Shown: positions 4,188 through 54,208 of the stretch, one piece after another
Position numbering within the stretch: position 1 is the first letter of the stretch
Layout of the letters: each line of letters begins with the position of its first letter
Origin: Curtobacterium sp. A7_M15
Lineage (GTDB): Bacteria > Actinomycetota > Actinomycetes > Actinomycetales > Microbacteriaceae
DNA: 64,000 nucleotides
Reading direction: 5' to 3'
Assembly: GCF_030705415.1 (NCBI RefSeq)
Contig: NZ_JAUZED010000002.1
Location: 1 to 64,000 of the forward strand
The notes under the pieces: generated by a model
Seen by the model: only the letters and a program-made list of their open reading frames with translations
What the model was told of the DNA's origin: nothing
Databases searched by the model: none
Translations under genes and position numbers: made by a program

Positions 4188-5110
4188 GCGACGACCGGCA
4201 CATCCTCCTGGTGTCCCACACGGGCCGCCGCGACTCGATCGATGCTGCGGTCGAGGTCTGCGACCTCCTGCACGCCGCCGGTCTCGTCCCGGTCATGCCG
4301 TTCGACGAGTACGCCGACATCCGTCGTGCCGAGGCGTCGGTCGGGCAGGTCGACATCCTCGGCGTCGACGTCCAGGCCGACCAGCTCGAGATCGTCATCG
4401 TGCTCGGTGGCGACGGCACCATCCTCCGTGCTGCCGAGCTCGTGCGCGGCACCGGCGCCCCGATCGTCGGCGTGAACCTCGGGCACGTCGGGTTCCTCGC
4501 CGAGAGCGAGCGCGACGGGCTCCGCTCGACCGTGGAGCGCGCGCTGTCCGGCGAGTACCACGTCGAGGAACGCGTCACCCTGCAGGTGGACGTCGTCGTC
4601 GGCAACGAGGTCGTCTACTCGTCCTGGGCGCTGAACGAGGCGACCATCGAGAAGGCATCCCGGGAACGCATGCTCGAGGTCGTGACCGAGGTCGACGGCC
4701 GCCCGTTGTCGTCGTTCGGCTGCGACGGTGTGGTCGTGTCGACCCCGACCGGCTCAACGGCCTACTCGTTCTCTGGGGGCGGGCCGATCGTCTGGCCCGA
4801 CGTCGACGCGCTCCTCATGGTGCCGCTGAGCGCCCACGCCCTCTTCGCGCGGCCGATCGTGGTCGGCCCGGACTGCACCCTCGCGATCGAGGTCCTGCGT
4901 CGCACGAGCGGTGTCGGCGTCCTGTGGTGCGACGGTCGACGCACGCACGACCTACCTCCGGGTGCCCGTGTCGAGGTCCGGCGCTCGCCGGACCCCGTGC
5001 GTGTGGCCCGCCTCAAGGACGCACCCTTCACCGATCGGCTCGTGGCGAAGTTCCAGCTCCCCGTCGCCGGGTGGCGTGGACCGCAGCAGGACGACGAGGA
5101 CACCCTGTGA
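4184..5110 (+). CDS. nadK: NAD kinase
   Basis: 308 residues. ATP-dependent phosphorylation of NAD to NADP in the cytoplasm. The diagnostic GGDGT motif is at residues 75-79 (catalytic Asp77), followed by GVNLGHVGFLAE, the NE motif in LNEATI, and STPTGSTAYSFSGGGP, all characteristic of the NadK/PpnK fold. The start ATG has a strong GGAAGGGA site and overlaps the tlyA stop (ATGA); the stop overlaps the recN start (GTGA). The tlyA-nadK-recN order is classic for Gram-positive bacteria. Confidence 0.97.
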   Translation: MSDDRHILLVSHTGRRDSIDAAVEVCDLLHAAGLVPVMPFDEYADIRRAEASVGQVDILGVDVQADQLEIVIVLGGDGTILRAAELVRGTGAPIVGVNLGHVGFLAESERDGLRSTVERALSGEYHVEERVTLQVDVVVGNEVVYSSWALNEATIEKASRERMLEVVTEVDGRPLSSFGCDGVVVSTPTGSTAYSFSGGGPIVWPDVDALLMVPLSAHALFARPIVVGPDCTLAIEVLRRTSGVGVLWCDGRRTHDLPPGARVEVRRSPDPVRVARLKDAPFTDRLVAKFQLPVAGWRGPQQDDEDTL

Positions 5111-6801
5111 TCGAGGAGATCTCCATCTCCGACCTCGGGGTCATCGGCGAGACCACCCTCGAGCTCGGCCCGGGATTCACCGTGGTGACCGGTGAGACGG
5201 GTGCGGGCAAGACGATGATCGTGACCGCGCTCGGGCTGCTCCTCGGCGCCCGCGCCGATGCGGGATCCGTCCGACGCGGTGCGTCGACCGCCGTGGTCGA
5301 GGGGCGCTGGCACGTCCCCGAGCAGGACGCCGTCGCCGAACGCGTCGAGGATGCCGGCGGCACCGTCGAGGACGGCGAGCTCATCCTGACGCGCACCGTC
5401 TCCGCCGAAGGCCGCAGCCGTGCGACCGTCGGTGGCCGCAGCGCTCCCGTCGCGGTGCTCGGCGAGCTCGCGGACCAGCTGGTCACCGTGCACGGACAGT
5501 CGGACCAGATCCGTCTGACCTCGGCGACCGCCCAGCGTGCCGCGCTCGACGGCTTCGGCGGTCCGGCGCTCGAGAAGGCCCTCGCGGCGTACGTGCGGGC
5601 CTACGACACCTGGCAAGAGCACACCGGCGAGCTCGAGACCCTCACGCGTGACCGTGACGACCGGGTGGCCGAGGCCGAACGCATCCGCGCGGCGTCCGAC
5701 GAGATCGAGGCAGCGGACCCGCAACCAGGCGAGGACGTCGAGCTGGCCGACCGTGCCGAGCGCTTGGGGAACCTCGAGGAACTCCGGTTGTCCGCCGGGC
5801 TCGCGCACGAGGCCCTCTCGAGCGAGTCGCTCGACGGTGCGCACGATGTCGTGGGTCTCGTCGAGTCCGCCCGACGCGCGATCGAGCGGGTCGCGGCGTC
5901 CGACGCCGAACTGCAGCCCGTGCTCGAGCAGCTCACGGAGCTCGGCATCCAGGCGTCCGAGGCCTCTGCGAGCCTGTCGAGCTACCTCGGCTCGCTCGAA
6001 CCCGACGCCGGCCATGACCTCGAACTCATCAACGAGCGGCGGTCCCTGCTCGCCGGCCTCACGCGCAAGTACGGCGAGACCGTCGACGACGTGATCGCCT
6101 ACGGGCAGCGCGCGAGTGATCGGCTGCTCGAACTCGACGGAGACGACGACCGGATCGCAGCGTTGCAGCTCGCGGTCGAGCAGGACGAGCGGACGCTCGC
6201 CGGCGCCGCCGCGGCCCTGACGACGGCACGGACCAAGGCGGCGAAGGACCTCGCCAAGCGTGTCACCGCCGAGCTGAAGTCCCTCGCCATGGCCGGGGCG
6301 ACCCTCGTGGTCGAGGTCTCGGACGCGGGCGACTACCGGCGCCACGGCCGCGACCAGGTGTCGATCCTGCTGCAGCCGCACTCCGGTACCGACCCGCGGC
6401 CGATCGGCAAGGGTGCGTCGGGCGGTGAGCTCTCCCGGGTGATGCTGGCGATCGAGGTGGTCATGGCGGGCAGCACGACGGTGCCGACGTTCGTCTTCGA
6501 CGAGGTCGATGCCGGCGTCGGCGGGGCAGCGGCCATCGAGATCGGTCGTCGTCTGGCGAAGCTCGCCGAGCGCACGCAGGTCATCGTCGTGACGCACCTC
6601 GCGCAGGTGGCGGCGTTCGCGAACAACCACCTCAACGTGGTGAAGGACGCCAGCGGAGCGGTCACGTCGTCGAGCGTGCGCCGCCTCGAGGGCGAGGAGC
6701 GTCTGCAGGAGATGGCGCGGCTCCTGTCCGGGCTCGGTGACAGCGCCAGCGGTATGGAGCACGCGCGCGAGCTGCTCGACGTCGCCGGCCAGAAGGCCTG
6801 A
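5107..6801 (+). CDS. recN: DNA repair protein RecN
   Basis: 564 residues, SMC-like ATPase acting in double-strand-break repair. Walker A GETGAGKT is at residues 29-36. A long central region is predicted coiled coil ([27 protein letters not shown] and onward). The ABC signature [15 protein letters not shown] and Walker [13 protein letters not shown] (Asp465, Glu466) are near the C-terminus, with the switch HLAQVAAFA after them. GTG start in a GTGA overlap with nadK; the usual family length is about 550-590. Confidence 0.97.
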
Positions 6802-26114: not shown

Positions 26115-26621
26115 ATGGCGGTGGTGCGCGAGCTCGGGGGCGCTTCGGCCGATCGTGACGTCGCTGCGCTGCAGGACCTGCTCGAGTCGGTGCCGGACTA
26201 CGCGGCCCGCATCACGGGGTACCCGCCGGGGCGGTCCGACGGGCTCAGCGCGCTGCTGTCGGTGCCGGACGGATTCGATCCGTCGGGCAAGGTCGGCCTC
26301 GGGCTGTGGGAAGGCGGTCGACTCGTGGCGTTCGCGGACGTGCTGCTCGGCTACCCGTCGCCGGGCGTCGCGTACATCGGGCTGCTGATCGTGCGCGGCG
26401 GGTTCCACGGCCGGGGACTCGGGCGGACGATGCACGAGGCCGTCGTCGATCGTGTGCAGCATCCACCTGTCGAGCGCTTGCGCCTCGGGATCGTGGCGAC
26501 GAACGCTTCGGTGGCCGAGCCGTTCTGGCGCGCGCTCGGGTACGCGCCGACCGGGGAGGAGAAGCCGTACCGGTACGACCACCTCGAGAGCACCGTCGCG
26601 CTCTGGGAACGTCCCCTCTGA
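26115..26621 (+). CDS. GNAT-family N-acetyltransferase
   Basis: 168 residues. The acetyl-CoA binding motif GLLIVRGGFHGRGLGRTMHEAVVDRV (R/Q-x-x-G-x-G/A type) is clear, with RLGIVATNASVAEPFWRALGYAPTGE as the following conserved block. It starts 16 bases after the helicase stop and is probably co-transcribed. The acceptor substrate is unknown. Confidence 0.88.
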   Translation: MAVVRELGGASADRDVAALQDLLESVPDYAARITGYPPGRSDGLSALLSVPDGFDPSGKVGLGLWEGGRLVAFADVLLGYPSPGVAYIGLLIVRGGFHGRGLGRTMHEAVVDRVQHPPVERLRLGIVATNASVAEPFWRALGYAPTGEEKPYRYDHLESTVALWERPL

Positions 26622-51890: not shown

Positions 51891-53069
51891 GTGAACGGCC
51901 CAACGCGGAACACTGAGCGCCGACGCCGTCGAGGAGCTGTGCGGGTCGTCGCCGGCGTGGCCGTCGCGCTCGTGGCGATGGTCGTCTCCGGGTGTTCCAC
52001 GGACACGACCCCGAAGGTCGCCGAGCCCCTCGCGACCTGGAACGCGGCCGTGGCAGACCGAGCCGACGAGCCCGCGAACTGGGTCGCCCTGGGGGACTCG
52101 ATCACCGAGGGGCAGGGTGCCTCCGCCCGCTCGACCCGGTGGATGGACCTCGTGCTCGACGGACTCCGAACGGAGCACCCGACCGACGGGGTCACCGGTG
52201 GGGACGGGTACCTCCCGGCACAGTTCGCCGTGTACGGCCCGGACTCGACCTGGGGTGACTGGGCGACGGCGCGCACGGGGGAGAGCCAGTTCGACACGAC
52301 CGCGCCCGACCTCGGCTACCGGTCCGTCGCCATGCAGGCGGGCGCCTCGCGGACGTACGCCTTCACGGGCACGGGGATCGACATCTGGTGGGCGCGCTAC
52401 CCCGGCTCCGGCGACTTCACCTACAGCGTCGACGGGGCAGCGCCCACGACCGTCGCCACGACGGGGACCGCCAGCACCGGGACGGTCACCGAGGTGGACG
52501 GTCTGACGAGCGGGCAGCACACGGTGACCGTCACCGCCGTCACGCCGTTCTCCCTGCTGGGGTTCACGGTCTTCGACGGCGACCGGGACGCGGGGATCCA
52601 TCTCTACGACTCCGCGCACTCCGGGTCGACGATCGCGACCTTCACCGAGGACCAGGAGGGCTTCCTGACGGCGATGCGTCGTGCTGCGCCGGACCTCATC
52701 ACGATCACGTTGGGTGGCAACGACGCGTCGAAGCTCACCCCCGAGGAACTCGGTACGCAGTACGTGGCCTTCCTGAAGGCCCTCGCGGCGCTCCCCACGA
52801 AGCCCTCGCTGCTCGTGATCGGCGAGTTCACCCCGGCCTCGGGCATGACCGACGGCATGGCGGACCCGTGGTCGACGTACCTCGCCGAGATCGAACACGC
52901 TGCGGCGAAGGGTGGCGCTGCCTTCGTCGGCATGGCGGACACCTTCCCCGAGGCCGACTACTCCGGGACGGGGATCTACTCGACCGACGGCATCCACCCG
53001 AACGACTCGGGACAGCGGCGGATCGCGAAGCTCGTGCTCGCCACCCTCGCGGCGCACGAGGACGACTGA
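51891..53069 (+). CDS. SGNH/GDSL-family lipoprotein hydrolase with inserted beta domain
   Basis: 392 residues, GTG with GGGAGG upstream. Signal RRRRRGAVRVVAGVAVALVAMVVSGC with lipidation at Cys35. The GDSL motif is VALGDSITEG (Ser70). A beta-rich insert (residues about 130-230, RTYAFTGTGIDIWWARYPGSGDF) resembles an N-terminal carbohydrate-esterase extension. The block III GGND (ITITLGGNDASKL) and C-terminal DGIHPND complete the SGNH triad. Probably deacylates cell-wall or polysaccharide substrates outside the membrane. A decayed copy of its last third lies at 54099-54179. Confidence 0.9.
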   Translation: MNGPTRNTERRRRRGAVRVVAGVAVALVAMVVSGCSTDTTPKVAEPLATWNAAVADRADEPANWVALGDSITEGQGASARSTRWMDLVLDGLRTEHPTDGVTGGDGYLPAQFAVYGPDSTWGDWATARTGESQFDTTAPDLGYRSVAMQAGASRTYAFTGTGIDIWWARYPGSGDFTYSVDGAAPTTVATTGTASTGTVTEVDGLTSGQHTVTVTAVTPFSLLGFTVFDGDRDAGIHLYDSAHSGSTIATFTEDQEGFLTAMRRAAPDLITITLGGNDASKLTPEELGTQYVAFLKALAALPTKPSLLVIGEFTPASGMTDGMADPWSTYLAEIEHAAAKGGAAFVGMADTFPEADYSGTGIYSTDGIHPNDSGQRRIAKLVLATLAAHEDD

Positions 53070-53117
53070 CGGACGGGAGGCGCGGTGCCAGCAGGTACCG
53101 CGCCTCCCGTCCGTCAG
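53066..53117. repeat. Interspersed palindrome, copy 6
   Basis: Perfect 21-bp arms from 53066 and to 53117 with core CGGGAGGCGCGGT, 10-base loop. It starts inside the SGNH stop codon region (gene end 53069), so the 3' end of the mRNA is this hairpin: a clear terminator position. Confidence 0.9.
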
Positions 53118-53295
53118 TGAGCCCGACATTGTGTGCTGCCGGTGACGAGTGTCAGTGCGGACGCGCCGTCCTGCGCAACGCGACGGAACGTCGTCGACGC
53201 AGCGGTTGCCGCAGCTCGTTGCCGGATCACGCGGTCTCTCGTGTCCAGCTTTGCTACGGTTTCCGTGTTTGATGTTCTACACAACGGAGTGTGAA

Positions 53296-53808
53296 GTGAA
53301 TCTTCGTCGTCGCGGCTTGACGGTCGCTGCAACCCTGAGTGCTGTCCTCTCTGGAATGACTCTTGCCGCCCCCGCCTCTGCGGAGCCTGCTTCTGCGGCA
53401 GACGGTTCGGCAGTCTCGGTCACGTACTTCGACGCCGGTGGCCGGGAGCTGCCCGTCCCGCGATCTGGAGTGTTGCCCAGAGCTGCTTCGACCGTTCGCG
53501 TGTGCGCACCGAAGCGCTGCGTGACGGTCAACACGTCGCGCTACTGCCCCAACAGCCAGTCGAAGTGTGGGTCGAAGTACACCCGCTTCAGCGGAGCGTA
53601 CTGCTCACCGTCGGTGGGGTGCTTCACGCTCCGGGGCGTGAACTACTTCGCTGCTCGAGGGCCACTGCCGACACCCAAGCAGCAGCAGGCGATCGCGCAG
53701 TGCACGCTCAGCATCGGGGGATCGATCCTCTCGGCAAGTGCAGGCGGACCGATCGGGTTGACGATGTCCGGTGTCGGTATGACCGTGTGGGGGTGTGCAT
53801 CCGTATGA
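53296..53808 (+). CDS. Secreted 8-cysteine protein, bacteriocin-like
   Basis: 170 residues. A classical signal peptide (MNLRRRGLTVAATLSAVLSGMTLAAPASA, cleavage after Ala29), a short polar pro-region, then a cysteine-rich domain with Cys70, 75, 84, 91, 103, 109, and a Gly-rich hydrophobic C-terminus with Cys136 and Cys167 (IGGSILSASAGGPIGLTMSGVGMTVWGC). Eight cysteines would make four disulfides. The hydrophobic glycine-rich end looks like secreted pore-forming or bacteriocin proteins, but I do not recognise a family. GGAGTG precedes GTG. Followed with a 4-base ATGA overlap by a two-TM protein. Lower GC than neighbours. Confidence 0.75.
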   Translation: MNLRRRGLTVAATLSAVLSGMTLAAPASAEPASAADGSAVSVTYFDAGGRELPVPRSGVLPRAASTVRVCAPKRCVTVNTSRYCPNSQSKCGSKYTRFSGAYCSPSVGCFTLRGVNYFAARGPLPTPKQQQAIAQCTLSIGGSILSASAGGPIGLTMSGVGMTVWGCASV

Positions 53809-53987
53809 GCAAGGCGACTGCTGCAAGCCCGATCGCCTTCGTCGTCCTCGGACTGGCGATTGCCACGGTCGGGCTCTGGGCCCTCGTGATCGAGCGAGTC
53901 GCCTTCGGTGTCGGCATGCTCGTCTTCGCCGTCGGGCTGGTGCTGACCGGCCTCTTCCGTTTCCGGATGCGTCGTCGACGCGGCTGA
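53805..53987 (+). CDS. Small two-TM protein coupled to the secreted Cys-rich gene
   Basis: 60 residues: TM1 PIAFVVLGLAIATVGLWALVIE, TM2 VAFGVGMLVFAVGLVLTGLFRF, with a basic end RMRRRRG. ATGA overlap with the secreted gene means strict translational coupling. Position and size fit an immunity or secretion-accessory protein for that product (inference). Palindrome copy 7 ends the unit. Confidence 0.7.
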   Translation: MSKATAASPIAFVVLGLAIATVGLWALVIERVAFGVGMLVFAVGLVLTGLFRFRMRRRRG

Positions 53988-53990
53988 GCG

Positions 53991-54032
53991 GGACAGGAGG
54001 CGCGATGAGCTCTGGTGTCGCGCCTCCTGTCC
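53991..54032. repeat. Interspersed palindrome, copy 7
   Basis: Arms GGACAGGAGGCGCGA / TCGCGCCTCCTGTCC (15 of 15) around a 12-base loop, 4 bases after the small protein stop. Same family core as the other copies but with CAGG for CGGG. Terminator position. Confidence 0.85.
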
Positions 54033-54098
54033 TGAGCGCTGTCCCTGCACCCAGCCTCGATCAACGGGTCGTTCCCCGAGGTGCGATCGGGACGAGGT

Positions 54099-54179
54099 GA
54101 TCTCCTCATCACGATCGCGCTGGGCAACGACGCGTCGAAGCTCGTGCTCGTCACTCCGGCGGCGCGCGAGGACGACTGA
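54099..54179 (+). pseudogene. Remnant of the SGNH gene, two pieces fused at microhomology
   Basis: The frame reads DLLITIALGNDASKL then VLVTPAAREDD and a stop. The first part matches DLITITLGGNDASKL of the SGNH gene (DNA 52692-52736) and the second matches KLVLATLAAHEDD plus stop (53028-53069). The junction is at the shared AAGCTC, so about 290 bases between were lost. Eight or more substitutions show it is not recent. Confidence 0.75.
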
Positions 54180-54208
54180 CCAGCCCGCCCGGGGGTCACG
54201 GGTCTGCT

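Follow-up and report, generated by a model that had tools for sequence, protein, structure and literature searches.

What a small, secreted, cysteine-rich protein does when its gene overlaps that of a minute membrane protein is a question raised by a 64,000-nucleotide stretch of DNA from Curtobacterium sp. A7_M15 (contig NZ_JAUZED010000002.1, positions 1 to 64,000 of the forward strand; hereafter the window), in which two such genes, here called A and B, stand between two palindromes. A sequence-only reading of the window had likened the pair to a bacteriocin with its immunity protein. We consider it probable that A is a free-standing, Sec-exported, membrane-targeting antibacterial toxin built on the type of domain that forms the C-terminal tips of RHS proteins, and that B is its two-transmembrane (two-TM) immunity protein, the two working like Tse5 and Tsi5. 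The sequences show directly that the two genes exist and are coupled, that the domain is shared, that it can lie behind an RHS core and that a small membrane-protein gene recurs next to it, and the proposal of a bacteriocin with its immunity protein gains support because the domain is an RHS tip lying directly behind the core and because a small TM gene accompanies it at 11 of 12 loci. The logic of toxin and immunity and the tips of RHS proteins are already known; what appear to be new are the domain itself, its occurrence in a free-standing and presumably disulfide-rich form, and how large the repertoire of the genus is.

Inspection of the locus bore out the two-gene unit, its eight-cysteine, apparently secreted product, the two-TM second gene, the ATGA overlap and the flanking palindromes, the signal peptide being recognised by eye (coordinates in Table 1). 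Behind a GGAG-like ribosome-binding site at 53286-53289, just 5' of the GTG codon, gene A encodes an n-region with RRR, a hydrophobic stretch and ASA at residues 27-29, and its product is apparently exported via Sec. All eight cysteines (residues 70, 75, 84, 91, 103, 109, 136 and 167) lie behind the signal peptide. The chain had been said to end in WGC, which is indeed close to the end but not last, the final residues being MTVWGCASV. A hydropathy scan of the gene B product shows two segments, which begin at residues 10 and 32, and the protein ends in a basic tail, RFRMRRRRG. The two genes share 4 bases, and because Rathayibacter (L006) and a phage contig (L031) have homologous pairs with the same ATGA overlap, we take their coupling to be more than chance. 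The pair is single-copy in its genome.

When gene A alone was searched against 66 genomes of the genus, the matches besides itself were RHS proteins in two genomes, residues ~100-167 of A aligning with the last ~70 residues of those proteins (per-genome E 1.1e-5 and 2.8e-5). Among 398 genomes of the family, mature A recovered a 182-residue secreted homologue in Rathayibacter sp. VKM Ac-2856 (G233, locus L023; 49% identity over 108 residues, E 1.1e-26). As a single-protein query gene A found no relative in 84,980 species genomes, and a profile of the domain (A1) found five loci in them, including Leifsonia shinshuensis and Frigoribacterium; one locus reached by this profile belongs to another family of the same order (G747, E 2.2e-9), and one lies on an IMG/VR contig (L031, 54%). 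A further profile (A3), built without the Frigoribacterium sequence or any other member of what we call subfamily II, recovered that subfamily (G098, G319, G107 and G320/Frigoribacterium; E 2.3e-9, 7.0e-9, 1.5e-6 and 3.7e-5), and the profiles of the two subfamilies match each other at E 6.3e-10 (hhalign). The domain is intact at 12 of the loci found, which are partly akin (the two Curtobacterium RHS loci are near relatives, as are two Leifsonia copies), and their alignment has eight invariant columns, which form a motif Y-C-x2-S-x-G-C followed by G, C and C. Within the window's copy of the domain, a hydrophilic cysteine-bearing head precedes a Gly-rich hydrophobic C-terminal half. The domain was present in 1 of 15 genomes of the genus Rathayibacter and in 1 of 47 of the family of G747. 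In searches of 394 class and 149 phylum genomes, which scored a capped number of candidates in each, the window itself was the sole match, so that within this sample the family seems limited to the order. A tblastn search of plasmid and phage records with gene A gave no match.

Two of the relatives are RHS proteins. In Curtobacterium sp. GC_Cur_3 (L024), a protein of 1,104 residues with an apparent signal sequence bears the RHS core TIGR03696 at residues 953-1036, and the domain makes up the remaining 68 residues, directly behind the core; a protein of 1,100 residues from Curtobacterium sp. VKM Ac-1395 (L025) has the same layout. One Leifsonia genome (G417) holds the domain twice, as short tip cassettes, one in a 205-residue frame that retains the end of an RHS core and the other in a shorter frame of 115 residues. 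The free-standing secreted copies, whose signal peptides, like that of A, were recognised by eye, form two subfamilies. Subfamily I (the window, Rathayibacter, L031 and G747) carries an extra four-cysteine module, VC.P..C...C...CG, before the domain; it is common to the four free-standing homologues with 8 to 10 cysteines and absent from RHS tips (alignments A4 and A7). Subfamily II (G098, G319, G107 and Frigoribacterium) has four cysteines and an FW[DN]xTSRFR-like end. On the 46.7-kb record that holds L031, six proteins from another part include, by PHROGs, a DNA polymerase, a primase, an exonuclease and a sigma factor, and the single terminase family searched for was not found; the toxin/two-TM pair (4752-5428), which is evidently phage-borne, is encoded on the + strand, whereas most of the small genes around it are on the - strand, and is moron-like in this respect. 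The RHS arrangement of a variable tip directly behind a conserved core was thus found for this domain in L024, and over 30 loci a single core type bears about 25 dissimilar tips. Gene A itself, at 170 residues, has no RHS or other family match; because its domain is an RHS-type tip, it is best regarded as a free-standing relative of a polymorphic toxin, neither an RHS protein nor a classical small bacteriocin.

Directly 3' of the domain, a small membrane-protein gene was found at all but one of the intact loci, in several genera. The gap between the two genes is -4 bases in the window, in Rathayibacter and on the phage contig, +1 in the two Leifsonia copies, +7 and +8 in the two Curtobacterium RHS genes, +13, +15 and +16 in subfamily II, and +47 at G747. 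Two TM segments were seen in the partner at ten loci at a hydropathy of 1.6, and one at G319 (two at 1.3). Across 10 loci the similarity matrices of toxin and neighbour are correlated (Mantel r 0.68, reached in 0 of 20,000 permutations), as they are across the 8 loci that exclude near pairs (r 0.60, p 0.003), a correlation that would fit cognate genes or mere linked inheritance alike. At the Rathayibacter locus L023 a second, homologous two-TM gene, apparently an orphan, occupies 4993-5217, 445 bases upstream of the toxin open reading frame (ORF).

A search with the 179-residue RHS core of L024 yielded 68 matches, spread over 39 of the 66 genomes of the genus, and 30 of these (L053-L082), two being the loci of L024 and L025 themselves, were analysed as loci. 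Their tips measure 51-108 residues, fall into 25 sequence clusters, consist of 21% Gly and 17% Ala, and contain two cysteines (22 tips), three (1) or four (7); pooled over the 30 tips, glycine-zipper matches number 96, against 56.2 (sd 7.7) in 2,000 shuffles. A two-TM ORF (45-120 residues, exactly two segments) lies within -40 to +60 bases 3' of 26 of the 30 RHS genes and within +150 of 29; the four misses comprise four-TM ORFs at L060 and L061, a two-TM ORF at +137 at L058, and an interrupted core with no clear partner at L080. By position and type, found at 11 of 12 domain loci and 26 of 30 RHS loci, the downstream two-TM gene is the probable immunity gene, and the RHS tips of the genus together with their two-TM ORFs make up an extensive set of candidate membrane toxins. 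RHS loci of this kind are also present in the genome to which the window belongs, on contigs 151, 30 and 2. On contig 30 (L084), several small two-TM genes stand one after another behind an RHS tip and resemble an immunity array.

How the pair would act, from export and disulfide formation through killing, a membrane target and pore formation to protection, we infer as follows. A would leave the cell via Sec and lose its signal peptide, and its cysteines would pair outside, four within the N-terminal module and four within the domain. The Gly-rich C-terminal half would enter the cytoplasmic membrane of competitors in the vicinity, which are probably closely related actinobacteria, in the form of a helical hairpin and depolarise that membrane, while B, with its two TM segments in the membrane of the maker, would keep the toxin made by the cell from inserting or assembling there. 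A large carrier would deliver this domain in RHS proteins; in its place gene A would employ a signal peptide and a small cysteine-rich module. A membrane-inserting toxin is favoured because the tip is short and Gly-rich, with cysteines that would pair, has a two-TM partner and shows no catalytic motif, and because Tse5 and Tsi5 provide a direct precedent.

In Tse5, an RHS effector of Pseudomonas aeruginosa, the C-terminal part forms pores in membranes, and two TM regions are predicted for Tsi5, its immunity protein (PMC9637101); the likeness, one of architecture, consists in an RHS-borne C-terminal toxin, a small two-TM immunity protein and no enzyme fold expected. Tse5 is a Gram-negative type VI effector, whereas here the RHS carrier is actinobacterial and apparently Sec-exported, and the window copy is carrier-free. 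The ionophore toxins of contact-dependent inhibition (CDI) and their CdiI proteins are the precedent for polymorphism, with many different C-terminal toxins that depolarise membranes and cognate immunity proteins that vary strongly; they differ in their CdiA carrier, in entry domains that use inner-membrane receptors and in predicted five-helix bundles, where our domain has ~70 residues and probably paired cysteines (PMC11630599). The precedent for glycine zippers is given by the glycine-zipper toxins EsxX and TelE (PMC12744356) and CdzC/CdzD with CdzI (PMC5380434), which resemble the present pair in that the toxins are small, rich in Gly and active on membranes and the immunity proteins are membrane proteins, CdzI having three predicted TM domains (PMC5380434). 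They are exported by type VII or type I systems, and the portions available report no conserved cysteine pattern (PMC12744356, PMC5380434), in contrast to the apparent Sec export and strict Y-C-x2-S-x-G-C motif found here. In a census of polymorphic toxins, Tox-WTIP is a pore-forming class with two membrane-spanning helices and RHS carriers, and Imm-CdiI and Imm17 have two TM helices; Tox-WTIP is listed for proteobacteria and has RxxR and Wx[ST]IP motifs, neither of which is seen in gene A by eye (PMC3482391). WapA of Streptococcus suis is a Gram-positive, Sec-exported RHS polymorphic toxin with a far larger carrier, a sortase partner and other tips (PMC12704120).

Several observations weigh against a membrane-targeting toxin with its immunity protein. 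The sequence-only reading would have been undermined by homologues of A lacking the small protein, and although 11 loci are paired, the Frigoribacterium homologue (L026/L046), the family's most divergent arm, has no TM-bearing ORF of 30-160 residues in the 1.3 kb before it or the 2.2 kb after it. Gene B is 31% identical to its nearest counterpart, two-TM proteins being alike by composition, and the TM test was a simple hydropathy scan. AlphaFold returned a mean predicted local distance difference test (pLDDT) score of 53.7 for mature A and 51.4 for the domain, with two C-terminal helices at low confidence that give a hint of a helical hairpin. Spontaneous membrane insertion of A is uncertain, since its C-terminal half contains no 19-residue stretch above a hydropathy of 1.3, and glycine-zipper matches in the window domain number only 2, the enrichment given above referring to the pooled RHS tips. 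The controls are also imperfect: a two-TM ORF stood directly downstream of 1 of 86 control genes, these having been chosen by codon bias and the 30 test loci not, and broader controls gave 8 of 153, 13 of 239 and 15 of 286, the positives being mostly test-set RHS genes left in the control. The sole positive among the 86 lies in the window, at 26115-26621, and is followed by an ORF of 92 residues.

Small two-TM ORFs are easily found in GC-rich DNA and the G747 pair is 47 bases apart, so that A might be a secreted protein of unrelated function with a small membrane protein beside it by chance; given that the arrangement recurs across several genera at 11 of the 12 intact loci, at three with the identical 4-base overlap, and that the control gave 1 in 86, such an accident is scarcely credible. 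It is also very improbable that A acts on plants or fungi, or serves as an envelope protein, with B as its export or assembly partner. Hosts are often the targets of small cysteine-rich secreted proteins, members of Curtobacterium are commonly plant-associated, and one homologue lacks B, but the domain sits at RHS tips that are each followed by their own unlike small membrane protein, and A matched no effector family and no known structural cell-wall family, a match of the latter kind being one that would have spoken against the bacteriocin proposal. Unlikely, if less so, is a toxin-immunity pair without pores, in which A binds a membrane or cell-wall target (e.g., lipid II or a transporter) that B shields. 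The compact cysteine head of the free-standing forms, the moderate hydrophobicity of the window copy and the end of subfamily II, which is a conserved polar tail and not hydrophobic, would suit such a pair; tips on the same carrier are Gly/Ala-rich with glycine zippers, and two-TM immunity suits a membrane-inserted toxin, as described for Tse5/Tsi5 (PMC9637101).

Should A indeed be a membrane-targeting toxin and B its immunity protein, a new toxin domain would join the polymorphic toxins, a tip would have been freed from its RHS carrier to become a diffusible secreted bacteriocin, and the pair on the phage contig would suggest a route by which tips and immunity genes travel. We lean towards a wider proposition, that in Actinobacteria of this family there is a large and so far undescribed store of membrane toxins that are short, rich in Gly and Ala and pinned by cysteines, that a tiny two-TM immunity protein is dedicated to each, and that they move among three vehicles: RHS proteins with Sec-type signals, free-standing bacteriocins with a cysteine-rich module, and a phage genome, moron-like. 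One tip fold in two vehicles and ~25 natural, sequence-unlike tip/immunity pairs in one genus would be usable for specificity studies, and such pairs could offer narrow-spectrum agents against actinobacteria.

The suspicion that the family might be undescribed agrees with the curated collections, gene A having matched 0 families in Pfam and NCBIfam at E up to 10 and 0 in PHROGs at E up to 1; the PDB gave nothing significant (best E 2.4 for gene A and 0.079 for the domain profile). Gene B had sub-threshold matches only in Pfam and NCBIfam, to unlike membrane families. A Pfam family for the partner protein was dropped, the matches being scattered, sub-threshold and to dissimilar membrane families; among the sub-threshold matches of the partner family search was NF038396 (E 0.0024, 17.6 bits against a cut-off of 40). 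Our searches of open-access papers turned up no account of the domain, none of two-TM immunity proteins in these bacteria, and no paper pairing Curtobacterium with Rhs and toxin. Several other candidates were set aside: G039 in the genus search, whose match is limited to the signal-peptide region and was treated as chance; the weak rows of the family search beyond G233, G320, G098, G319 and G417, dropped as chance without every row being read singly, including L008, by eye a phosphate-binding-like protein of 522 residues, and L007 and L009, which were inspected; and, in the profile searches, G515, in which the motif was not found on reading, with G073, G176, G234, G249 and G289 of the A3 search (E 0.0018-0.0064) dropped as chance, all but G234 having been inspected and the motif found absent in those four. 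A broken toxin remnant adjoining a two-TM gene (G363, L042) stands outside the 12 intact loci.

Table 1. Features of the A/B locus and its flanks, in window coordinates.
Feature	Position	Strand	Remarks
Gene A, putative secreted toxin	53296..53808	+	170 residues; GTG start at 53296; stop ends 53808
Probable Sec signal peptide of gene A, residues 1-29	53296..53382	+	read by eye
N-terminal four-Cys module of the free-standing form (C70, C75, C84, C91; VCAPKRCV...YC...CG)	53503..53571	+	alignments A4, A7
Shared toxin domain (~70 residues), equivalent to RHS C-terminal tips	53581..53805	+	alignment of 12 loci
Gene B, two-TM protein, probable immunity protein	53805..53987	+	60 residues; ATG at 53805; ATGA overlap with gene A
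Upstream palindrome	53068..53115	.	predicted -53.2 kcal/mol; probable terminator of the SGNH-type hydrolase gene before it
Downstream palindrome	53989..54034	.	predicted -37.9 kcal/mol; probable terminator of the A/B pair
Degenerate copy of two segments (52694-52736, 53026-53070) from the hydrolase gene upstream	54104..54180	+	sequence comparison

The two palindromes that enclose the pair are 76% alike over 42 bases, and a terminator scan that requires a T run picked up neither, so they are no more than probable terminators. The degenerate copies of hydrolase-gene pieces downstream, taken with the likeness of the palindromes, are a possible scar of insertion or duplication.
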